Source: Arhodomonas aquaeolei DSM 8974
GTDB lineage: Bacteria > Pseudomonadota > Gammaproteobacteria > Nitrococcales > Nitrococcaceae
Assembly (NCBI RefSeq): GCF_000374645.1
Contig: NZ_KB894806.1
Span: 62,001-126,000 of the forward strand
Direction of reading: 5' to 3'
Length of the DNA stretch: 64,000 nucleotides
Position 1 is the stretch's first letter, and every line of letters starts with the position of its first letter. Under the pieces are notes generated by a model, which did not search any database, was not told the DNA's origin, and saw only the letters and a list, made by a program, of their open reading frames with translations. A program made the position numbers and the translations under genes. Shown here piece by piece: positions 22,242 to 36,479 of the stretch.

Positions 22242-25200
22242 TCATGCGGGTTCGCCGGTGACGAGCTGCTGGGCGGCGCCGGCCTGGCCGAGGTTGCGCA
22301 GCTCCTGGAGCGCGACCCCGAGCATGGGCAGGTCGACCTGCGCGGCCTTGCGCAGCTCGGTGATGGTCTGGGCGAGGCGCTCGACCATGGCCTTGTTGTC
22401 CCTTATCCAGTGCTCCAGGCGCTCGGCCGGTGGGGTACCCTCGTCGCCGCTGCGTAGCACGCGCACCGCCATGCGCCGGAGCTGGACGAAGAACTCCTCC
22501 TCCATGCCCGCGCGGTAGCGCTCCTGCCAGGGATCGTCCACCGGGTGCTCGGTGATCGCCTCGCGCAGCCATCCCAGCTCCAGGCGGGTGCCGGCGGTGT
22601 AGTAGACCTCCGCGGCCTCGCGCAGGCGCGCGCCGGTGTCGCTGGCCACCTTGACCAGGTCGAGGGCGGCGTAGAGTGCGTCCAGCCGGGCGACCCGGCG
22701 GCCGAGCTCCTCGGGCACGCCCTCGTTGGCGTGATCCTCGACCTCGGTCTCCAGCAGGCGGCGGTCCTCTTCGGGCACCAGCTCGTCCAGGGTCTCGCCG
22801 AGGTGGCGCACCGCCGGCGAGATGCGGGCGACGGTCTCCTCGATGTCCAGTGGCGAGGGGAGGTTGCGCAGCAGCCACAGGGTGGCCCGCTCCTGGAGAT
22901 TGCACAGCGCGTCCAGCACTCGGAGCTGGGTGGTCGCGGAGACACGGTTGTCCAGGGCGTCCACCTCGTGCCAGAGCTCGCGCAACCGGAAGATGTCCCG
23001 GGCGGCGAAGTACGCGCGGGCGGCGTCCGCTGCGTCCACGCCGGTGCGCGCACGGATGCGGAAGAGGAAGGTCGCCCCCATGCGGTTGAGTATGTGGTTG
23101 GTCACCACCGTGGCGGTGATCTCGGCGCGCAGCGGGTGGCCCTCGATCCGCTCGCGGTAGCGCTCGCGCAGCGGCTGAGGGAAGTAGCGCATGAGCTCGG
23201 CGCTGAGATAGTCGCTGGCGACCAGCTCGGAGCCGAGCAACTCCGGATAGGCTTCGATCTTGGCGTAGGCGAGCAGCACCGCGAGCTCCGGGCGGGTGAG
23301 CCCGCCGCCGACCTTGCCCCGCTCCATCAGTCCCTCGTCGTCGGGCAGGTGCTCCACCGCGCGGTCCAGTCGGCCGCCGCGCTCGAGATCGCGCATGAAC
23401 CGGCCGTGCTCGTCGATCAGCTCCGCGCTATGGTGCTGGAGCAGCGACAGACCCTGGGTCTGGCGGTAGTTGTTGGCCAGCACCAGGCGGGCGACCTCGT
23501 CGGTCATGTCCGCGAGCAGGTGGTTGCGCTGCTTGGTGGTGAGGTCGCCGTCGTCGACGGTGCGATTGAGCAGGATCTTGATGTTGACCTCGTGGTCCGA
23601 GCAGTCCACGCCGCCGGAGTTGTCGATGGCGTCGGAGTTTACCCGGCCGCCGTGCATCGCGAACTCCACCCGCGCGAGCTGGGTGAGGCCGAGGTTGCCG
23701 CCCTCTCCGATAACCCGGCAGCGAAGCTCGCCGGCGTCCACGCGCAGGGCGTCGTTGGCCTTGTCGCCCACATCGGCGTGGCTCTCCTCCGAGGACTTGA
23801 TGTAGGTGCCGATCCCCCCGTTCCAGAGCAGGTCCACGGGGGCGCGCAGGATCGCCGAGATCACCTCCAGCGGGGTGAGCCGCTCGCCGCCGCTGATGCC
23901 GAGTGCCTGCCGGGCGGCCGCCGAGAGCTGGATGGACTTGGCCGAGCGGGGCCATACGCCGCCGCCGGTGGAGATCCGGCTGCGGTCGTAGTCCTCCCAG
24001 CTCGAGCGGGCCAAGCCGAACAGCCGCTGGCGCTCGGCGTAGCCCGTCTCCGGGTCCGGGTCCGGGTCGATGAAGATGTGACGGTGATCGAAGGCGGCAA
24101 TCAGCCGTGTCTGTTCGGAGAGCAGCATGCCGTTGCCGAATACGTCGCCGGACATGTCGCCGATGCCCACGGCGGTGAACGGCTCGCTCTGGATGTCGCG
24201 GCCGAGCTCGCGGAAGTGGCGCTGCACGGCGACCCAGGCGCCGCGGGCGGTGATCGCCATCTTCTTGTGGTCGTAGCCGCTGGAGCCGCCGGAGGCGAAG
24301 GCGTCGCCGAGCCAGAAGCCGTATTCGTCGGAGAGCTCGTTGGCGTAGTCCGAGAACGTGGCCGTGCCCTTGTCCGCGGCGACTACCAGGTACGGGTCGT
24401 CGTCGTCGTGGCGCAGCACCTGCGGCGGCGGGCTGACCTCGCCGGCGGCGATGTTGTCGGTGACGTCGAGCAGGGCGCGAATGAAGATGCGGTAGCCGGC
24501 GAGGACCTCGTCCGCGGCGGCCTGCCGGTCCTCGGGCAGCTGCTTGCAGACGAACCCGCCCTTCGCGCCCATGGGCACGATGACGGCGTTCTTGACCATC
24601 TGTGCCTTCATCAGCCCGAGGATCTCGGTGCGGTAGTCCTCGCGGCGGTCGGACCAGCGGATGCCGCCGCGGGCGACCTTGCCGCCGCGCAGGTGCACGC
24701 CCTCGACCCGCGGCGAGTACACGAAGATCTCGTAGGCCGGCACCGGCTTGGGCACGCCGGGGATGGCCCGGGGGTCGAGCTTGAGGGAGACGAACTCCCG
24801 CCGCCGGCCCTCGCTGTCACGGCGGTAGAAATTGGTGCGCAGAGTGGCCTGCACCGCGGCGAGCATGCGGCGCAGGATGCGGTCCTCGTCGAGGCTGGTG
24901 ACCTCCTCGAGCAGGCCCTCGATCTCCTCGCCCAGGGCCGCTGCCGCGGATTCGTCGGCGCTGTCCGGATCGAGGCGGGCGGCGAACAGCCGGGCAAGCC
25001 GCCGGGTGATGGTGGCGTTGTTGGCGAAGGTCTCCTCCAGGTACTGCTGGCTGAACGGCAGGCCGGCCTGGCGGAGGTAGCGCGCATAGGCGCGCAGGAT
25101 CACGATCTGCTCCCAGGTCAGCCCGGCGGCGAGGACCAGGCGGTTGAAGCCGTCGTCCTCGGCGCGGCGGTGCCAGACCGCGGAGAAGGCGTCCTGGAAG

Positions 25201-27101
25201 TGCGTGCGGATGTTCTCCGGCTCGCGCTGGCCGGCGCTCGCGTAGCGCAGGCCGAAGTCGTGGATGTAGGCGATGCCGCCGCGCTGCAGGTGTACCTCGT
25301 AGGGGCGCTCGTCGACGACCTCCACGCCCATGTGCTCGAGCACCGGCAGGGCATCGGAGAGCACGATCGGGCGCTCGTACTGGAACAGCCGCAGGCGCAG
25401 GATCTCCGGCGGTGCCTCCAGCGGGCGGTAGAGCACGATCCCCAGGTCGTCCGGCCCGCTGATGTGCTCCAGGCGCTCGACGTCGTGGATCGCCGCGCGG
25501 GGCACGGTGTCCTCGCGGTAGGCGGCGCTGAATCCGTCGCCGTAGCGCTGCAGCAGGCGGTTGCCGCGGGCCTCGCCGAAGTACTCCAGCATCGCCTCGC
25601 TGAGGTCGTCGCGCCAGCTGTGCATGGTGTGCGCCAGGCGCCGTTCGAGGTCGTCGTGGTCGTAGCTCGGCTTGCCGGGTTTGGCCAGGCGCACGATGAA
25701 GTGGATGCGCGCGAGCACGGACTCGGAGAGCTGGACCGAGAACTCGGCGTTCTCGGCGGAGAAGGTGTCGACCAGGATCGACTGCATGCGCTCGCGCACG
25801 TCCGTGTTGTAGCGCTCCCGGGGGGCGTAGACGAGGCAGGAGACGAAGCGGCGGAAGGTGTCGTAGCGCACGAACAGCCGCACGCGCTGGCGCTCCTGCA
25901 GGTGCAGGATGCCCTTGGCGGTCTCGTAGAGCTCGTCGGTGGAGGCCTGGAAGAGCTCGTCCCGCGGATGGGTCTCGAGGATGTTGATCAGCGCCTTGCC
26001 CGCGTGGCTGTTGGGCCGGAGGTTGGCCTGCTCGAGGATCTGCTCGATCTTGCGGCGCAGCAGCGGGATGGTGCGCGGGCTGCGGTGATAGGCCGCGGAG
26101 GTGAACAGCCCGAGGAAGCGGTGCTCGCCGATCACCTCGCCGTTCGCGTCGAAGCGCTTGATGCCGATGTAGTCCATGTAGCCCGGGCGGTGGACGGTGG
26201 CGCGGCTGTTGGACTTGGTCAGCACCAGCGGTTCGGGGTCGCGGGCCAGCGCCTTAACCGAGGCGGGCAGGGCCGCGAAGCTCTCCGAGCGTTCGTCGCC
26301 GCTGTGCGCGCGCAGGATGCCCAGGCCGGAGTCGGCGACCGCGCGCAGCTCGTCGCGGCGGCCCTTGCGGGACAGCTCGTAGCGCCGGTAGCCAAGCAGG
26401 GTGAAGTGATCGTCGTGGATCCAGCGCAGGAACGCCGAGACCTCCTCCAGCCGGTCCGCGTCGATGGGCGGCGGGCGGCTTTCGAGCTCGCGCATCGCCT
26501 CCTCGAGGCGGCCCAGGATGGAGCGCCAGTCACCCACGGCAAGGCGCACGTCCTCGATCACGGAGGCGATGTCGCCGCGGATGCGTTCGAGGTCGTCCTG
26601 GTCGCTCTGGCGGTCCACCTCGAAGTGCATCCATGCCTCGGGGCCGGCGCCCTCGGCCTGCTGCACGTCGGGGATCTCGGCGACCCGGTGGTCCTCGCCG
26701 CGGCGCACCGTGAGCACCGGGTGGATGATCAGGTGGATGGTCAGCCCCAGGCGGTTCAGCGCCATGGACACCGAATCCACCAGGAACGGCATGTCCGGGG
26801 CGACGACCTCGCAGACCGTGTGGGTCGACTGCCAGCCGTTCTGCTCCGCGTCCGGATTGTAGACGCGGATATGGACCTGCTCGGGGGCGCGGACCTCGCC
26901 CAGGTTCCAGTGGCACAGCGCGGCGCCGTAGAGGTCGTCCGGGCGGCGGTCGATCACGTCCTCCGGTGCCGCCCCCTCGAAGTACTGGCGCACGAACGTC
27001 TCCACCAGCGGCGCGTCCTCGCCGCTCCAGCGCTCGCCGACGCGCCCGGCGATGGTGTCGATGACTTCTTCCCGGGCTTTTTCTTCGCTCGCCTGTCGCA
27101 T
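22242..27101 (-). CDS. gdhB: NAD-specific glutamate dehydrogenase, large 180-kDa type
   Basis: 1,619 residues, matching the about 1,620-residue GDH family of Pseudomonas and Streptomyces. A long N-terminal ACT/regulatory region (about 1-700) precedes the catalytic dehydrogenase core (about 720-1,250), with a KGGFVCK substrate-lysine segment, and a helical C-terminal region. It oxidises glutamate to 2-oxoglutarate and ammonia with NAD, feeding the TCA cycle, and is usually catabolic and activated by amino acids such as arginine. It is the largest gene of the window. Codon 2 onward is preceded by GGGGGT only, a weak ribosome site. Confidence 0.96.
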   Translation of the reverse strand: MRQASEEKAREEVIDTIAGRVGERWSGEDAPLVETFVRQYFEGAAPEDVIDRRPDDLYGAALCHWNLGEVRAPEQVHIRVYNPDAEQNGWQSTHTVCEVVAPDMPFLVDSVSMALNRLGLTIHLIIHPVLTVRRGEDHRVAEIPDVQQAEGAGPEAWMHFEVDRQSDQDDLERIRGDIASVIEDVRLAVGDWRSILGRLEEAMRELESRPPPIDADRLEEVSAFLRWIHDDHFTLLGYRRYELSRKGRRDELRAVADSGLGILRAHSGDERSESFAALPASVKALARDPEPLVLTKSNSRATVHRPGYMDYIGIKRFDANGEVIGEHRFLGLFTSAAYHRSPRTIPLLRRKIEQILEQANLRPNSHAGKALINILETHPRDELFQASTDELYETAKGILHLQERQRVRLFVRYDTFRRFVSCLVYAPRERYNTDVRERMQSILVDTFSAENAEFSVQLSESVLARIHFIVRLAKPGKPSYDHDDLERRLAHTMHSWRDDLSEAMLEYFGEARGNRLLQRYGDGFSAAYREDTVPRAAIHDVERLEHISGPDDLGIVLYRPLEAPPEILRLRLFQYERPIVLSDALPVLEHMGVEVVDERPYEVHLQRGGIAYIHDFGLRYASAGQREPENIRTHFQDAFSAVWHRRAEDDGFNRLVLAAGLTWEQIVILRAYARYLRQAGLPFSQQYLEETFANNATITRRLARLFAARLDPDSADESAAAALGEEIEGLLEEVTSLDEDRILRRMLAAVQATLRTNFYRRDSEGRRREFVSLKLDPRAIPGVPKPVPAYEIFVYSPRVEGVHLRGGKVARGGIRWSDRREDYRTEILGLMKAQMVKNAVIVPMGAKGGFVCKQLPEDRQAAADEVLAGYRIFIRALLDVTDNIAAGEVSPPPQVLRHDDDDPYLVVAADKGTATFSDYANELSDEYGFWLGDAFASGGSSGYDHKKMAITARGAWVAVQRHFRELGRDIQSEPFTAVGIGDMSGDVFGNGMLLSEQTRLIAAFDHRHIFIDPDPDPETGYAERQRLFGLARSSWEDYDRSRISTGGGVWPRSAKSIQLSAAARQALGISGGERLTPLEVISAILRAPVDLLWNGGIGTYIKSSEESHADVGDKANDALRVDAGELRCRVIGEGGNLGLTQLARVEFAMHGGRVNSDAIDNSGGVDCSDHEVNIKILLNRTVDDGDLTTKQRNHLLADMTDEVARLVLANNYRQTQGLSLLQHHSAELIDEHGRFMRDLERGGRLDRAVEHLPDDEGLMERGKVGGGLTRPELAVLLAYAKIEAYPELLGSELVASDYLSAELMRYFPQPLRERYRERIEGHPLRAEITATVVTNHILNRMGATFLFRIRARTGVDAADAARAYFAARDIFRLRELWHEVDALDNRVSATTQLRVLDALCNLQERATLWLLRNLPSPLDIEETVARISPAVRHLGETLDELVPEEDRRLLETEVEDHANEGVPEELGRRVARLDALYAALDLVKVASDTGARLREAAEVYYTAGTRLELGWLREAITEHPVDDPWQERYRAGMEEEFFVQLRRMAVRVLRSGDEGTPPAERLEHWIRDNKAMVERLAQTITELRKAAQVDLPMLGVALQELRNLGQAGAAQQLVTGEPA

Positions 27102-27189: not shown

Positions 27190-28218
27190 TCACCCCGGAT
27201 TGGCGCGCAGGGCGTCGCTGCCGATCTCCAGGGCCACGGCGGCCATGTTGTAGCCCACGCCGGAGCCGAGCAGCACGACCCGGTCCCCGGCGGCGGCGCG
27301 GCCGCTGCCAAGGAGGTGGTCGAGCGCCATGGGCACGCACGCGGAGCCGGTGTAGCCCCACTCGCCCATGATCATCACCGCGCGCTCGGGTGTCAGCCCC
27401 AGCGCCGCACACGCGTGCTCGATGGTGCAGCGGTTGATCTGGGTGAAGATCACGTGGTCGATGTCCGCCACCGCCAGGCCGCAGCGGGCGACCAGGCGCC
27501 GCACGAGGCGCGGCCAGCCGGTCTCGTTGACCTCCGGCGGGTAGCGGTGCTTGACCCGGACGCGGTGTCGCCCGGCGGCAACGGCCGCCGCGGAGGCGGG
27601 CTCGACGGTGCCCCCGGCGTCGATGCCCCAGTAGTCGGCGTAGCGCCCGTCCGCCTCGAAGGCCGCGCCGAGCACGCCGGGCCGGTCGCCGGCGGTGACT
27701 ACCGCCGCCCCGGCGCCGTCGCCGTAGAAGAAGCCCATGGGGTCGTCGTCGGCGGTGTGCCGGCTCATGAGATAGGCCCCCGCCACCAGTACCGTGTCGA
27801 CGCCGGTGTTGGTCGCGATCAGCCCCTGGGCGGTGGCGAGCGCGGTGGGGAAGGAGGCGCAGGCGCAGCCGATGTCGAAGGAGCCGGCCTGATGGGCGCC
27901 GAGCCTGGCCTGGAGCACGGTGCTGGTCGCCGGTGTGGGGTAGTCCGGGGTGTCCGTGCCCACGAGGATCATGTCGATATCCGCAGGGGCGATGCCCGCG
28001 CGTGCCAGCGCCTGCCGTGCGGCGGCGGCGGCGAGGTCGGAGGTGGCCTCGCCGGGGGCGGCGCGGTAGCGTGCGTGGATGCCGGATCCGGCCTCGAAGC
28101 GGGCGAGGCGCTCGCCATGCGCCTCGCCCAGGCGGGCGAGCAGGTCGTCGTTGCTGATGCGCTCGGTGGGGAGGTGGCGGCCGGTGGCGACAACCCGGGC
28201 GAAACGGCTCATCGGCAT
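27190..28218 (-). CDS. KASIII (FabH-like) thiolase-fold protein with altered catalytic triad
   Basis: 342 residues with the FabH fold: GTDTPDYPTPATS, an active-site cysteine at Cys120 (GCACASF) and the C-terminal GSGVGYN. Canonical FabH condenses acetyl-CoA with malonyl-ACP using Cys-His-Asn. Here the His of PHQAN is Thr259 (FTQIN) and the Asn of GNTSAAS is Tyr289 (GYTGSAC). Decarboxylative condensation is therefore doubtful; acyl transfer or another Claisen-type reaction is possible. It is upstream of gdhB on the same strand, with an 88-base gap, and divergent from the phosphomannomutase. M1 at 28218 and M3 at 28212 are both possible starts. Confidence 0.82.
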   Translation of the reverse strand: MPMSRFARVVATGRHLPTERISNDDLLARLGEAHGERLARFEAGSGIHARYRAAPGEATSDLAAAAARQALARAGIAPADIDMILVGTDTPDYPTPATSTVLQARLGAHQAGSFDIGCACASFPTALATAQGLIATNTGVDTVLVAGAYLMSRHTADDDPMGFFYGDGAGAAVVTAGDRPGVLGAAFEADGRYADYWGIDAGGTVEPASAAAVAAGRHRVRVKHRYPPEVNETGWPRLVRRLVARCGLAVADIDHVIFTQINRCTIEHACAALGLTPERAVMIMGEWGYTGSACVPMALDHLLGSGRAAAGDRVVLLGSGVGYNMAAVALEIGSDALRANPG

Positions 28219-28328: not shown

Positions 28329-29693
28329 ATGAGCGAACTGCTGGGATGCTTCAAGGCCTACGATATCCGCGGCCGGGTGCCGGACGACCTGGATGCCGGG
28401 CTCGCACGGCGCATCGGCCGCGCCTACGCCGAGGCCCTCAGTCCCGGCCGGGTGGCGCTCGGGCGCGATATCCGGCTGTCCAGCCCGGAGATCGCCGCGG
28501 CGGTCGCGGACGGCCTCCGCGACGGCGGCGTGGACGTCCTCGACATCGGCGTCGTCGGCACCGAGGAGGTCTACTTCGCCACGTTCCACTACGGTCTCGA
28601 TGGCGGGATCATGGTTACCGCGAGCCACAACCCGCGGGACCACAACGGCATGAAGCTGGTGCGCGAGGGCGCACGGCCGATCAGCGGCGACAGCGGCCTC
28701 GGCGACATCGAGCGCCTTGCCGCCGGCCCGGAGCTCGTGGTGCGTCCGCGCCGCGGCGGCCTGGAGGCCTTCGATCACCGGTCGGACTACGTCGAGCACC
28801 TGCTCGGCAGCATCGATACGGCGACGCTGGCGCCGCTGAAGGTTGTGGTCAATGCCGGCAACGGCGGCGCCGGCGTGGTGGTGGATGCCCTCGCGCCGCG
28901 GTTGCCCTTCGAGCTCGTGCGTGTTCATCACGAGCCGGACGGGCACTTCCCCAACGGCGTACCCAACCCGCTGGTCGAGGCGAGCCGCGCGGTCACCGCC
29001 ACCGCGGTGACGCACAGCGGCGCCGACCTGGGCGTGGCCTGGGACGGCGACTTCGATCGCTGCTTCTTCTTCGACGAGCAGGGCCGGTTCATCGAGGGCT
29101 ACTACATCGTCGGCCTGCTCGCGGAGCTGTTCCTGCGCCGCAGCCCCGGGGAGCGGGTCATCCATGACCCGCGCCTGACCTGGAACACCATCGACCTGTG
29201 TCGGGCCTTTGGCGGCGAGGCGGTGCAGTGCAAGACCGGGCACGCCTTTATCAAGGAGCGCATGCGCGCCGAGGACGCCATCTACGGCGGCGAGATGAGC
29301 GCCCATCACTACTTCCGTGACTTCGCCTACTGCGACAGCGGCATGCTGCCGTGGCTGCTGGTCGCCGAGCTCATCGGCCGCACCGGCAAGCCGCTCTCCC
29401 AGCTCGTCGACGAGCGCATCGAGCGCTTTCCGGCGAGCGGCGAGATCAACCGCGAGATCGACGACCCGGCGGCGGCGATCGCAGCGGTGGAGGCGGAGTA
29501 CGGGGCGGACGCCGTCGCCGTCGACCACACTGACGGGGTGAGCATCGAGCTCGCCGACTGGCGGTTCAATCTGCGCATGTCCAACACCGAGCCGGTGGTG
29601 CGGTTGAACGTGGAGACGCGCGGGGACCGGGCGCTGATGCACGCGAAGACCGACGAGCTCATCGCCCGCCTGGACGCCTTCGCGCATGGGTGA
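28329..29693 (+). CDS. manB: Phosphomannomutase (ManB/CpsG type)
   Basis: 454 residues, the length of enterobacterial CpsG (about 456). The alpha-D-phosphohexomutase domains carry the phosphoserine loop TASHNP (Ser99), the metal loop DGDFDRC, the sugar loop [10 protein letters not shown] and a C-terminal phosphate-binding [10 protein letters not shown]. It interconverts mannose-6-P and mannose-1-P for GDP-mannose and surface polysaccharides. Phosphoglucomutase activity, as in AlgC, cannot be excluded. It stands alone. CGAGGA precedes the ATG. Confidence 0.92.
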
Positions 29694-29710: not shown

Positions 29711-31504
<1,794 letters not shown>

Positions 31505-31581
31505 GGCGTGTCTTTCCTCCTGGCGGGGGCGCGCCTGCAAGCGCGCCCGCGGAATTCCCCGTGCCCGTCGCCGGGCGGGTG

Positions 31582-33327
31582 TTACAGCACCAGTCGCCGC
31601 AGGTCGGCGAGCAGCTGCGCGAGGTAACTGGTGAACCGCGCGGCGGCGGCGCCGTCGATCACCCGGTGATCGTAGGACAGCGACAGCGGCAGCATCAGCC
31701 GCGGAGCGAACTCGCTGCCGTTCCACACCGGCTTGGTGCTCGACTTGGACACGCCGAGGATCGCCACCTCGGGGGCGTTGACGATGGGCGTGAAGGCCGT
31801 GCCGCCGATCCCGCCGAGGCTGGAGATGCTGAAGGTGCCACCCTGCATGTCGCCCGCGCCGAGCTTGCCGTCCCGGGCCTTGGTCGAGAGCTCGGCGAGG
31901 TCGCCGGCGATCTCGTAGATGCCCTTGCGGTCGGCGTCCTTGACCACCGGTACCACCAGCCCGTTGGGCGTGTCCACGGCGACGCCGACGTTGATGTAGT
32001 GCTTGACGATGAGGGCGTCGCCGGAGGGCTTGAGCGAGCTGTTGAACTCCGGGAAGCGCTGCAGCGCGGCCGCCGAGGCCTTCACCAGGAAGGCCAGCGG
32101 CGTGAGCTTGACGCCGCGCTCCTCGGCGGCGGCCTTCTCGGCCTTGCGGAAGGCCTCCATCTCGGTGATGTCCGCCTCGTCGAACTGGGTGACGTGGGGC
32201 ACGTTGAGCCAGCTGCGGTGCAGGTGCGGGCCGCTCTTCTGCTTGATCCGCGACAGCGGCTGCTCCTCGACCTCGCCGAACTTCGAGAAGTCCACCTCCG
32301 GGATGGGCGGGATGCCCATGCCACCCTGGGCCGGGGCCTGGGCCGACGGCGCGGCGGCCCCGGTGCCGGCGCCCTGCAGCGCGCGTTTGACGAAGCCGCG
32401 GACGTCGTCGTGGGTGATCCGGCCCTTGCGTCCGCTGCCCTGCACCGTGCCGAGGTCGACGCCCAGCTCGCGGGCGAAGCGCCGCACCGACGGGCTCGCG
32501 TGGGCGAGGCGCTGGCGCTCGGGCTCGATCGGCCGCTCGATGGGCTCGTGATCGGCCTCCAGCGAGCGTCCGGCGCTGGGGCCTGGGAGGACTTCGCTTT
32601 CGCCCTCATCGGATTCCTCGGGCCCCCCGGTCTCTGGTTCCGAGCCGGTCGCCTGTGCGGCGGTCTCCGGCTCGTCACCCGCGGGTTTGGATTCCGCCCT
32701 GTCCGCGGCCTTCGCCGGCGCGCCGCCCTCCAGGGTGACGATGGCGGTGCCCTCGGAGACCTTGTCGCCGGCGGCGACGAGGACCTCGGCGATCCGCCCG
32801 CCCCGCGGCGCCGGGACCTCCATGGTGGCCTTGTCGGACTCCAGGGTGATGAGCGAGTCCTCGGCCTCGACGGTATCGCCGGGCTTGACCAGGACCTCGA
32901 TGACGTCGACCTCGTCGAAGTCACCGATGTCCGGCACGGTGACGGTCTCGGTGCCGCCGTCACTACCGGCGCTGCTGCCGCCGGCGTCCTCACTGCCGGA
33001 GGCGGCGGGTGCGGAGTCGGTGCCCCCTTCCGGGGCCGCCGTGGTATCCGTCGTCCCGGTGTCGTCGCCGGAGCCGCCGGCGGCCTCCGCCACCTCCAGG
33101 GTGATGACGGCAGTGCCCTCGGCGACCTTGTCGCCGGCGGAGACCAGGACCTCCGCGACCCGGCCGGCCTCGGGGCAGGGCACCTCCATGGTGGCCTTGT
33201 CGGACTCCAGGGTGATCAGCGAGTCTTCCGCCTCGACGGTGTCGCCGGGTTTGACCAGGACCTCGATGACGTCGACCTCGTCGAAGTCACCGATGTCGGG
33301 GACCTTGATTTCCTTCGTGTCAGCCAC
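31582..33327 (-). CDS. aceF: Dihydrolipoamide acetyltransferase (E2) of pyruvate dehydrogenase
   Basis: 581 residues. Two N-terminal lipoyl domains (about 1-78 and 128-205) are joined by Ala/Gly/Ser-rich swinging-arm linkers. A peripheral-subunit-binding domain follows (about 265-305, [16 protein letters not shown]), then the catalytic acetyltransferase core (about 350-581) with the active-site SYDHRVIDG. It transfers acetyl groups from lipoate to CoA. It has two lipoyl domains, where E. coli AceF has three. It lies between aceE (75 bases) and lpd. Confidence 0.96.
32810..32911. repeat. 102-base perfect direct repeat, copy in aceF lipoyl domain 2
   Basis: Identical over all 102 bases to 31353-31454 in lpd; the match breaks on both sides. 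The aceF domain 1 copy (about 33182-33290) differs at several synonymous positions, so domain 2 and the lpd domain are the closest pair. Confidence 0.9.
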
Positions 33328-33402: not shown

Positions 33403-36078
33403 TCAGACCGTGACCGGGTTGGGCGCGTCCGGGTCGATGTCGTAGTGCGCGATGGCCTGCTGCACGGTATCGGCGTTCAGCCGGCCCTCGTCGGCGAGGG
33501 CCTTGAGCGCGGCCACCGTGACGTAGTAGCGATCGACCTCGAAGAAGTGGCGCAGCCGCTCGCGGGTGTCCGAGCGGCCGAAGCCGTCGGTGCCGAGTAC
33601 GGTGTAGCGCCGGTCGACGTAGGGCCGGATCTGGTCGGCGAAGGCGCGCAAGTAGTCGGTGGCGGCGACCGCCGGGCCGTCATGCCCCTCGAGCTGCCGT
33701 GCCACCCAGCTCTGACGCGGGGTCTCGCCCGGGTGGAGCATGTTCCAGCGCTCGCAGTCGATGCCGTCGCGGCGCAGCTCCGTGAACGACGGGCAGCTCC
33801 AGACGTCCGCGGCCACGCCCCAGTCGTCGCGCAGCATGTCCGCCGCGGCGATGACCTCCCGCAGGATCGGCCCGGAGCCCATGAGCTGGACCCGGTTGTC
33901 CGCGTCCCCGCCACGCTGGAAGAGATACATGCCCCGCCGGATGCCTTCCTCGGCGCCCTCGGGCATCGCCGGCTGGTGGTAGTTCTCGTTGAGCATGGTG
34001 ATGTAGTAGAAGACCTTCTCCTGGTCCCGGTACATCCGCCGCAGCCCGTCCTGGATGATCACCGCCATCTCGTAGGCGAACGTGGGGTCGTAGGAGATGC
34101 AGTTCGGGATTACCGAGGTCAGCAGGTGGCTGTGGCCGTCCTCGTGCTGCAGGCCCTCACCGTTGAGCGTGGTCCGTCCGGCGGTGCCGCCCATGAGGAA
34201 GCCCTTCGCCTGCATGTCGCCGGCCGCCCACCAGAGGTCGCCGGTGCGCTGGTAGCCGAACATGGAGTAGTAGGCGAAGAACGGGATCATCTCGATGCCG
34301 TTGTTGGCGTACGAGGTGGCCGCGGCGATCCACGAGGACATGGCGCCGGCCTCGTTGATCCCCTCCTGGAGGATCTGGCCCTTCTTGTCCTCGCGGTAGT
34401 ACATCAGCTGGTCGGCATCCTGGGGCTCGTAGAGCTGGCCCTTGGGCGAGTAGATGCCGAGCTGGCGGAACAGCCCCTCCATGCCGAAGGTCCGGGCCTC
34501 GTCGGGGACGATGGGCACCAGGTGCCGTGCCAGGGTCTTGTTGCGGCCGATGACCGCCAGTGCCCGCACGAACGCCATGGTGGTGGACATCTCGCGATCG
34601 CCGCTGTCCTTGAGCAGCACCTCGAAGGCGTCCAGGTCCGGGATGGTCAGCGCCGGGGCGTCCTCGTGGCGCTCGGGCAGATAACCGCCCAGGGCCTGGC
34701 GGCGCTCGTGGAGGTAGCGCATCTCCGGGCTGTCGTCCGCGGGCTTGTAGAATGGCGCCTCGGCGACCTTGTCGTCCGGCACCGGGATCTGGAAGCGGTC
34801 GCGGAAGGCCTTCAGGGCGTCCTCGGCCATCTTCTTCTGCTGGTGGGTGATGTTCTGGCCCTCGCCGGCCTCGCCCATGCCGTAGCCCTTGACCGTCTTG
34901 GCGAGGATGACGGTCGGCTCGCCCTTGTGCTTGGTGGCGGCGGCGTAGGCGGCGTAGATCTTGTGCGGGTCGTGGCCGCCGCGGTTGAGCCGCCAGACGT
35001 CCTCGTCGGTCATGTTGGCGACCATCTCCTTGAGCTCGGGATACTTCCCGAAGAAGTGCTCACGGGTGTAGGCGCCGCCCTTGGCCTTGAAGTTCTGGTA
35101 CTCGCCGTCGACGCATTCCTCCATGCGCCGGCGCAGCAGCCCCTTGGTGTCGCGGGCGAGCAGCGGGTCCCAGTAGGAGCCCCAGATCACCTTGAGCACG
35201 TTCCAGCCCGCGCCGCGGAACTCGCCCTCGAGCTCCTGGATGATCTTGCCGTTGCCGCGCACCGGGCCGTCCAGGCGCTGGAGGTTGCAATTGACCACGA
35301 AGATGAGGTTGTCGAGCCCCTCGCGGGCCGCCACGCCGATGGCGCCGAGCGATTCCGGCTCGTCCATCTCGCCGTCACCGCAGAAGACCCAGACCTTGCG
35401 GTCCTCGGTGTTGGCGATGCCGCGGTTGTGGAGATACTTGAGGAAACGTGCCTGGTAGACGCCCATGATCGGGCCGAGGCCCATGGACACGGTGGGCAGC
35501 TGCCAGAAGTCGGGCATCAGCCACGGGTGCGGATAGGACGACAGCCCGCCCTCCGAGAGATCGGAGCGGAACTTGTGCAGCCGGTCCTCGCTGAGCCGCC
35601 CCTCGAGGTAGGCACGGGCATAGATGCCCGGCGCGGAGTGGCCCTGGATGAAGATCAGGTCACCGCCGTGGTCCTTGGAGGGGGCGCGCCAGAAGTGGTT
35701 GAAGCCGACCTCGTAGAGCGTGGCCGAGGAGGCGTAGCTGGCGATGTGGCCGCCGATGCCCTCGCGGTCCTTGTTGGCCTGCACGACCATCGCCATGGCG
35801 TTCCAGCGCAGCAGCGAGCGGATGCGCCACTCCAGGGCGGCGTCGCCCGGGGACTTCTCCTCGTGCTGCGGTGGAATCGTGTTCTGGTAGGCGGTGGTCG
35901 CCTTGAACGGGAGCTGACCGCCCCGGCGGCGGGTCTTGTCCACGAGGGCCTCGAGCAGGAAGTGGGCGCGATCGGTGCCCTCGTACTCGAGCACCGCCTC
36001 GAGCGCCTCCATCCACTCCTGGGTCTCCTGGGGATCGTCATCGCCGGGGATGGGCGTGTGTTGCCTGAGTGCAGCCAT
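33403..36078 (-). CDS. aceE: Pyruvate dehydrogenase E1 component, homodimeric
   Basis: 891 residues, the length of gammaproteobacterial AceE (about 887). The thiamine diphosphate motif GDGEMDEPES, the FIQGHSAPG segment and a transketolase central domain are present. It decarboxylates pyruvate and acetylates the E2 lipoyl groups. ATG 36078 is chosen because AGAGGTGAG lies directly upstream and the family begins near here. It is the first gene of aceEF-lpd. A 401-base spacer separates it from hemF and holds an A+T-rich promoter-like zone. Confidence 0.96.
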   Translation of the reverse strand: MAALRQHTPIPGDDDPQETQEWMEALEAVLEYEGTDRAHFLLEALVDKTRRRGGQLPFKATTAYQNTIPPQHEEKSPGDAALEWRIRSLLRWNAMAMVVQANKDREGIGGHIASYASSATLYEVGFNHFWRAPSKDHGGDLIFIQGHSAPGIYARAYLEGRLSEDRLHKFRSDLSEGGLSSYPHPWLMPDFWQLPTVSMGLGPIMGVYQARFLKYLHNRGIANTEDRKVWVFCGDGEMDEPESLGAIGVAAREGLDNLIFVVNCNLQRLDGPVRGNGKIIQELEGEFRGAGWNVLKVIWGSYWDPLLARDTKGLLRRRMEECVDGEYQNFKAKGGAYTREHFFGKYPELKEMVANMTDEDVWRLNRGGHDPHKIYAAYAAATKHKGEPTVILAKTVKGYGMGEAGEGQNITHQQKKMAEDALKAFRDRFQIPVPDDKVAEAPFYKPADDSPEMRYLHERRQALGGYLPERHEDAPALTIPDLDAFEVLLKDSGDREMSTTMAFVRALAVIGRNKTLARHLVPIVPDEARTFGMEGLFRQLGIYSPKGQLYEPQDADQLMYYREDKKGQILQEGINEAGAMSSWIAAATSYANNGIEMIPFFAYYSMFGYQRTGDLWWAAGDMQAKGFLMGGTAGRTTLNGEGLQHEDGHSHLLTSVIPNCISYDPTFAYEMAVIIQDGLRRMYRDQEKVFYYITMLNENYHQPAMPEGAEEGIRRGMYLFQRGGDADNRVQLMGSGPILREVIAAADMLRDDWGVAADVWSCPSFTELRRDGIDCERWNMLHPGETPRQSWVARQLEGHDGPAVAATDYLRAFADQIRPYVDRRYTVLGTDGFGRSDTRERLRHFFEVDRYYVTVAALKALADEGRLNADTVQQAIAHYDIDPDAPNPVTV

Positions 36079-36479
36079 TGTCTCACCTCTGGTATCGCCG
36101 CGTGCGGCCGCGTTCCGTGGCACGTTTATCATTGTGCGGCAGCGGTCGTCGCGGGATCGCCGCGCGCCGCGATGGCTTTCGCCCCCCGGTCTGCGGGGGC
36201 CTTTGCTGACGTCGAGTATAGACACTGGGTCGCGGCTGCGGACCGGCCGCAATGTTGCGCTGCGGAAATCGATTCCGGAGCCGTACGACGTGTGCGCGTC
36301 CAAAGCTACCGTAACGGCGAGGGCGGTGTCGTCAGTTTATTAATTCTTTTATGTCACAAATCATGTGACGTCAGCGCCAGCCATCCTACGGGCACTCATG
36401 AAAAACAATGGGTTACAGGTTGACGTCGGGTTAACAGGCGTTATGCTGCGCCGCAGCGGAAAAAGTCCGCCCTTTGCCG
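36079..36479. other. 401-base spacer between hemF and aceE
   Basis: I see no gene here. The region contains the most A+T-rich patch of the neighbourhood (about 36330-36365), probably the aceE promoter zone, and an inverted repeat described separately. A compact GCTGC/GCAGC hairpin lies near 36445-36457, next to hemF. No classical T-tailed terminator for hemF is evident. Confidence 0.5.
36353..36369. promoter_or_regulatory. Inverted repeat GTCAC-N7-GTGAC upstream of aceE
   Basis: GTCAC (36353-36357) and GTGAC (36365-36369) form a 5-base dyad 7 bases apart inside the A+T-rich part of the aceE upstream region, overlapping a second palindrome TGACGTCA (36366-36373). It could be an operator. It does not match the PdhR or CRP consensus, so the regulator is unknown. 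Confidence 0.35.

Follow-up and report, generated by a model that had tools for sequence, protein, structure and literature searches.

Organization of the locus and its gene product

The window, which is the entire 64,000-nucleotide stretch of the Arhodomonas aquaeolei DSM 8974 genome that was analyzed, carries an uninterrupted minus-strand frame (28218..27190) that translates into a 342-aa protein, hereafter referred to as KAS, while the plus strand across 27190-28218 contains only a shadow frame. Both ACP_syn_III (PF08545) and ACP_syn_III_C (PF08541) exceed their Pfam cut-offs in this protein. Structure prediction, which the earlier note had proposed as a check, returned a confident KASIII fold, as the AlphaFold2 model (20-row alignment) has a mean pLDDT of 91.3 and a pTM of 0.91. 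Its closest solved fold is the 3-oxoacyl-ACP synthase III 4dfe_A (Z 46.1, rmsd 1.7 over 320 residues, 34% identity), and the E. coli structure 6x7r follows with Z 45.3 and 27% identity. The model confidence, the match to 4dfe and the Pfam domains together place the protein within the KASIII fold of the thiolase superfamily. By sequence, its PDB matches are 4dfe (173 bits), the PqsD-named 3h76 (113), 3row (68.4), which we take to be OleA, and PqsC 6esz (63.1).

Assignment to a named family is a different matter, as 21 NCBIfam models match the protein at E ≤ 0.001, including those for FabH, other KASIII types, HMG-CoA synthase and DarB/StlD, and none of the 21 reaches its cut-off. For the two FabH/KASIII models, the protein scores 172 bits against a cut-off of 292.1 (TIGR00747) and 199.2 bits against a cut-off of 249 (NF006829). 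The genome encodes exactly two PF08541 proteins, and the second one is a canonical FabH (427.7 bits to TIGR00747 and 450.1 bits to NF006829) located on another contig in a run with plsX, fabD, fabG and fabF. Such co-location is usual for FabH, though not strictly defining, and is absent around KAS, which has a pyruvate dehydrogenase (PDH)/glutamate dehydrogenase (GDH) context. The protein is accordingly distinct from the housekeeping FabH, as the earlier note had supposed.

The next gene downstream, on the same strand and after a gap of 88 nt, encodes a large-type NAD-glutamate dehydrogenase (22242..27101, minus strand), in agreement with the earlier note, which placed KAS upstream of NAD-glutamate dehydrogenase. 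This gene was recognized from its Pfam Bac_GDH_CD match (G000:C7:85442-86923, corresponding to window positions 23442-24923) and has no NCBIfam match at E ≤ 1e-100. On the other side of KAS, also on the minus strand, is the PDH cluster, consisting of lpd (dihydrolipoyl dehydrogenase, 29711..31510; TIGR01350, 540.8 bits, cut-off 408.8), aceF (dihydrolipoyllysine acetyltransferase, E2, 31582..33327; TIGR01348, 707.2 bits, cut-off 552.1) and aceE (pyruvate dehydrogenase E1, 33403..36120; TIGR00759, 1496.6 bits, cut-off 859.9). A divergent phosphomannomutase-like gene (28329..29693, plus strand; best NCBIfam model NF011943, 660.7 bits, below its cut-off of 801) lies between lpd and KAS, an arrangement found in the window and at locus L023.

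A rebuilt active site

Active-site residues were mapped by aligning the window protein to the 3il9 chain, which is presumably E. coli FabH and in which Cys112, His244 and Asn274 occur at their expected numbers. In this alignment Cys120 corresponds to Cys112, Thr259 to His244 and Tyr289 to Asn274, and the residue numbering given in the earlier note was therefore right. The protein retains the Cys of the Cys-His-Asn triad, with Thr259 in place of His and Tyr289 in place of Asn. Residue counts were obtained from 125 rows, made up of 38 loci of the window's order (L038-L040, <50% identical and of the FabH type, were excluded), 81 from a genome-collection scan (query included), five from a class-wide profile search and a single copy from a Chloroflexota plasmid. 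Over residues 21-300, 102 of the 125 rows are distinct. The scan patterns were CACASFPT and [IVG]FFYGDGA; Thr259 and Tyr289 are absent from both, while the class-wide search profile includes the two residues.

The predicted acyl-accepting nucleophile Cys120 (codon 27859..27861, minus strand) is Cys in 102/102 distinct sequences, a count that is partly the result of selection because the CACASFPT pattern found part of the set. Thr259 (27442..27444) and Tyr289 (27352..27354), encoded like all of these residues on the minus strand, are likewise invariant in all 102, as are Gln260, Thr290, Gly291, Ser292, Cys294 (27337..27339) and Ser319 (27262..27264). Several of these represent further departures from the E. 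coli FabH pocket, with Ser276 replaced by Gly291, Ser279 by Cys294 and Phe304 by Ser319, each in 102/102. The suggestion that the motifs FTQIN and GYTGSAC might be invariant was borne out for FTQ and GYTGS.C, but not in full: the last position of FTQIN is Arg in 67, Asn in 34 and Ser in 1 of the 102 sequences, and the Ala of GYTGSAC is conserved in 100/102. We also considered whether the catalytic His might simply have been relocated. This was rejected, as the most frequent His columns are positions 281 (75/102) and 152 (62/102), no other column reaches half of the sequences and none is universal. The absence of both a catalytic His and a catalytic Asn, as first noticed in the window, thus holds throughout the set.

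FabH binds CoA and ACP through Trp32, Arg36, Arg151, Lys214, Arg249, Lys256 and Lys257. Among the 102 sequences, the Trp32 position is Lys or Arg in 89, the Arg36 position is Arg in just 7, the Arg151 position is a gap in 99, and the Arg249, Lys256 and Lys257 positions are mostly non-basic. The Lys214 position stays basic (Arg or Lys) in 91/102, and the FabH surface is therefore retained in part.

A conserved subfamily of KASIII proteins

The Thr/Tyr KASIII proteins are a real and conserved subfamily with a rebuilt catalytic pocket, previously uncharacterized. Since the site is invariant in 102/102 sequences and dN/dS is 0.09-0.18 in five close pairs, indicating purifying selection, decay and chance are both unlikely explanations, in agreement with the earlier view of a specialized subfamily. 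A more distant pair (window/L041) has a dN/dS of 0.33, with dS near 1. When 22 other KASIII proteins were aligned with the clade, 21 had both His and Asn, the exception being a Geothrix neighbor that is over the PRK06840 cut-off. A single branch separates the Thr/Tyr clade from the sampled Cys-His-Asn KASIII, with an SH-aLRT of 77 in a tree of 43 rows and a support of 100/100 in a tree of 39 rows from which the long rows L072_KAS2, L163, L166 and L167 were excluded; neither tree contains PqsC, PqsD, OleA, CerJ or DarB sequences. Three distant members from two other gammaproteobacterial families (L141-L143) share 38-40% identity with the window protein. Trp32 is retained in them and position 118 is Ser, yet FTQ and GYTGS are present. 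They carry SACAGW in place of CACASF, and they form the first split within the clade in the 39-row tree.

Since two of the three catalytic residues are lost, we considered whether these proteins might be pseudoenzymes, or structural or regulatory KASIII proteins such as PqsB in PqsBC. PqsB is without all three catalytic residues and acts as a partner, according to the excerpted text of PMC4807248. A second KAS-like frame does occur at some loci, with the PRK06840 type present at 2/48 Acidobacteriota loci and others at L089, L105 and L106 (among the matches listed). Against such a role, neither the Cys nor the rebuilt pocket varies among the 102 sequences, and the only other PF08541 protein in the window genome is the FabH encoded on another contig. 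We consider it quite improbable that KAS lacks an enzymatic activity of its own. Directly upstream of the Thr/Tyr KAS of Geothrix fermentans is a second KASIII-like gene (L072:8917-9954), which is over the PRK06840 cut-off and has different active-site residues.

KAS is present in 38/54 sampled genomes of the window's order and was found in 0/12 genomes of one of its families (f5). The gene was retrieved from 37 of these 38 genomes, the remaining one (G022) being represented by a fragment. A genus g2 MAG labelled uncultured Spiribacter (G021) carries the locus twice, on separate contigs (L059 and L060), and may represent mixed strains. At E ≤ 1e-80, matches were detected in 8/369 genomes of a class-wide sample (three in the order, two in family f108 and three of the distant type), while the phylum-wide sample yielded 2/398, both within the order. 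From the genome-collection scan, the best 80 of 268 confirmed relatives were retained, of which 48 are from Acidobacteriota, 26 from Pseudomonadota, 4 from Myxococcota, 1 from a genome labelled Bacillota and 1 unassigned. The Chloroflexota plasmid copy is 50% identical to the window protein and is annotated as ketoacyl-ACP synthase III.

Gene context in the order of the window

Gene order was compared at 37 orthologous loci on other contigs, the window's own being excluded. In 27 of the 37, lpd is located upstream of KAS on the same strand, and in 14 of those the gap is only 6 nt; these cases belong to genus g2, whose matched MAGs include some labelled Spiribacter. Among the ten loci that lack an upstream lpd, the sequence available on that side is shorter than 1.4 kb in four and 5-8 kb long in six. 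GDH follows KAS in 31/37 loci, with six overlapping it by 4 nt (ORF ends used), and a GDH frame is also present at L056, although it was removed by the filter applied for this count. Many loci also have aceE and aceF upstream of lpd, with genes for an alpha/beta-hydrolase and malic enzyme downstream of GDH. A strict coupling of KAS with GDH is not supported, as Bac_GDH_CD occurs in 8/12 of the f5 genomes that are without KAS.

An alpha/beta-hydrolase adjoins KAS in 7/37 loci together with a protein of 212-280 aa, five copies of which are 45-72% identical to each other; the copy at L119 has no Pfam match. A match at E ≤ 1e-60 was obtained in 12/59 related genomes, 11 of which carry KAS, the other being G047 (86% complete), and the window genome has no match. 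Thus, the pair is not an obligatory partner of KAS. The uncharacterized protein and the hydrolase form such a pair at L116:1344-3223 and L119:8133-9851; it occurs at loci of the Ectothiorhodospiraceae type and of Burkholderiales, between which the hydrolases are 60-67% identical.

Gene context in Acidobacteriota and other lineages

For the 48 Acidobacteriota loci among the best 80 of 268, neighbors were defined as same-strand genes within 6 kb that match single references at BLAST E ≤ 1e-15, with some loci shortened by contig ends. The most frequent neighbors are FabG-like SDR (37), TetR (32), alpha/beta-hydrolase (28) and AMP-ligase (25) genes, followed by those for a TonB-type outer-membrane protein (23), thiolase (20) and a periplasmic binding protein (15). 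The statement in the earlier note that KAS is not in a fatty-acid operon is true of the window, but the Acidobacteriota copies have genes for FabG-like reductases, acyl-CoA ligases and thiolases in their vicinity. L107 contains a tight run of SDR, KAS, hydrolase, ligase, thiolase and two more hydrolases, while the Holophaga-type locus L133 has the order KAS, thiolase, a 105-aa protein without a Pfam match, SDR, porin, binding protein and ABC ATPase. The Chloroflexota plasmid carries KAS together with FabG, CoA-transferase, thiolase, DUF35, hydrolase and ABC transporter genes. In Paucimonas lemoignei (L119), 3-hydroxybutyrate dehydrogenase and hydrolases are near KAS, and 3-oxoacid CoA-transferase B is encoded on the opposite strand. 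About 2.3 kb downstream of the Geothrix fermentans KAS is a gene of the MbnB/TglH/ChrH family (L072:13258-14127), which is associated with RiPP precursor modification.

The recurring neighbor set points to 3-oxo/3-hydroxyacyl-CoA metabolism. However, SDR, TetR, ligase and transporter genes belong to large families and could neighbor KAS by chance, and single co-occurrences therefore prove little. The combination of KAS, hydrolase, AMP-ligase and SDR genes presumably resembles an Ole-type cluster, from which it differs in the adh_short/FabG type of its SDR and in its ligase, which is matched best by models of other CoA ligases. Two further explanations were examined and were not supported. A role as substitute for a missing thiolase does not fit with Thiolase_C being present in 58/59 related genomes and a thiolase being located beside KAS at 20/48 Acidobacteriota loci. 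Similarly, a PHA link within the order was not upheld by co-occurrence, as PHA synthase is found in 51/59 genomes, including those of family f5, in which 12/12 genomes are without KAS.

The thiolase and DUF35 neighbors raise the question of whether KAS could be an HMG-CoA-synthase-like aldol enzyme operating in a complex with these proteins, comparable to the archaeal thiolase/HMGCS complex. The Chloroflexota operon combines KAS with DUF35 and a thiolase that has 6esq, the thiolase of the archaeal complex, among its close PDB relatives, and 6esq is also the best PDB match of the thiolase adjoining KAS in Holophaga-type operons. With the archaeal HMG-CoA synthase models, however, the protein itself scores just 88.4 bits against a cut-off of 244 (NF003274) and 51.2 against 353.35 (TIGR00748). 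Among the best 80 of 268 scan loci, the DUF35 reference was matched near KAS in 0/80 and a thiolase in 0/26 of those from Pseudomonadota. We regard such an aldol enzyme as improbable.

Gene context likewise bears upon the proposal in the earlier note that KAS might synthesize a signaling molecule, which is not supported. KASIII-like enzymes do participate in the PQS and dialkylresorcinol pathways (PMC4807248, in excerpt, and NCBIfam model names). Nevertheless, the DarB/StlD models score far below their cut-offs (NF053539, 26.2 bits against 550; NF005293, 30.9 against 450), and the neighbors that could be classified are PDH, GDH or acyl-CoA genes, i.e., primary carbon metabolism or acyl-CoA functions rather than a quorum-sensing set. 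In addition, the protein encoded beside a ScbA/BarX gene in Streptomyces (one locus examined of three hits) retains both His and Asn. A signaling role thus seems very unlikely.

Proposed function

The excerpted text of PMC4807248 reports that Cys112 of E. coli FabH becomes loaded and that His244 and Asn274 act afterwards, in the decarboxylation of malonyl-ACP; a His269Ala variant of PqsBC, according to this text, still acylates. Because KAS keeps the Cys and has both helpers replaced, an acyl-enzyme is still expected, while the standard decarboxylative step is unlikely. As the same double swap occurs in every family member examined, a different acyl-transfer reaction is probable. We therefore favor, with about even confidence, a KASIII-fold enzyme separate from FabH that would form an acyl thioester on Cys120 and pass the acyl group on without malonyl decarboxylation, acting as an acyl-CoA (or acyl-lipoyl) acyltransferase or as a (retro-)Claisen enzyme for short 3-oxo/3-hydroxyacyl thioesters. 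The acyltransferase role put forward in the earlier note would fit such a site, which has an acylatable Cys and is without the residues for malonyl decarboxylation (PMC4807248, excerpt). After acylation of Cys120, Thr259 and Tyr289 would take over from His and Asn in providing hydrogen bonds and a proton, with Tyr289 as a putative general acid/base and CoA or a 3-oxoacyl substrate as the likely acceptor. Tyr289 would be the obvious new proton donor or acceptor, given that thiolase-fold aldolases such as Ltp2 and Sal employ a Tyr as acid/base (PMC12329534, excerpt). The identity of the acyl group, the substrate and the reaction are what we infer from these comparisons. In favor of this assignment, we count the KASIII fold, the loss of most of FabH Trp32/Arg36/Arg151/Arg249/Lys256/Lys257 and the placement beside acetyl-CoA-forming (PDH) or acyl-CoA-handling genes; the basic Lys214 position in 91/102 counts against it. 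The contexts vary among lineages, and no one pathway is therefore established.

The main competing explanation is that KAS is still a decarboxylating 3-oxoacyl synthase in which Thr259 and Tyr289 stand in for His and Asn and whose product passes to the adjacent FabG-like reductase. The closest solved folds and the best family model are all FabH/KASIII, an SDR of this type is near KAS at 37/48 Acidobacteriota loci, and the Lys214 position is mostly basic. Furthermore, PqsC functions without the Asn, and replacement of the His in FabH reduces activity only 10-fold (PMC4807248, excerpt), such that a missing His alone does not forbid decarboxylation. In KAS, however, both helpers are gone together, along with Phe304, Ser276 and Ser279; Arg249, Lys256 and Lys257 are mostly absent; and a canonical FabH exists in the same genome. 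We consider decarboxylation by KAS unlikely on balance, and favor acyl transfer without it.

A family with Thr and Tyr at these positions was not described in the titles and abstract openings of the open-licence literature that were searched. It is conceivable, though speculative, that this Cys-Thr-Tyr catalytic center defines a clade several phyla wide, which would use acyl-Cys120 and Tyr289 as acid/base (possibly with Cys294/Ser319) for non-decarboxylative making or breaking of C-C bonds on 3-oxoacyl thioesters. Such enzymes would operate in acidobacterial acyl-CoA operons and, in gammaproteobacteria such as Spiribacter, be integrated into the pyruvate dehydrogenase operon, with acetyl-lipoyl or acetyl-CoA as a potential donor there. 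Given that both decarboxylation residues have undergone a clean, coordinated swap under strong conservation, the family offers a defined test of Cys alone in a KASIII fold. Family members are currently annotated plainly as KASIII, the Chloroflexota copy among them, and recognition of the clade will probably eliminate false FabH assignments when metabolism is reconstructed for Acidobacteriota and for the window's order.

Comparison with known systems

The window protein has in common with FabH the fold and the nucleophilic Cys. It differs by having Thr/Tyr for His/Asn and a changed Phe304, by the absence of Trp32, Arg36, Arg151 and most of Arg249/Lys256/Lys257, by scores under the FabH cut-offs and by a gene located outside of a fab cluster. 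PqsC of PqsBC likewise has a KASIII fold, is active in the absence of the canonical Asn and forms an acyl-enzyme on Cys, but it keeps His269 and is a heterodimer with PqsB (PMC4807248, excerpt), whereas the window protein is without that His and has no second KASIII nearby in the window. The archaeal HMG-CoA synthase/thiolase/DUF35 complex is resembled by the Chloroflexota operon, with its KASIII-fold protein, related thiolase and DUF35; in contrast, the window protein is far under the HMGCS cut-offs, and the 80 scan loci (best 80 of 268) have no DUF35 match near KAS. Finally, the steroid aldolases Ltp2 and Sal place a Tyr acid/base in a thiolase-fold pocket, as is proposed here for Tyr289, and differ in their retroaldol chemistry and, for CtSal, in forming a complex with a DUF35 domain (PMC12329534, excerpt). 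Judging from motif spacing, Tyr344 of Ltp2 would occupy the same position as Tyr289.
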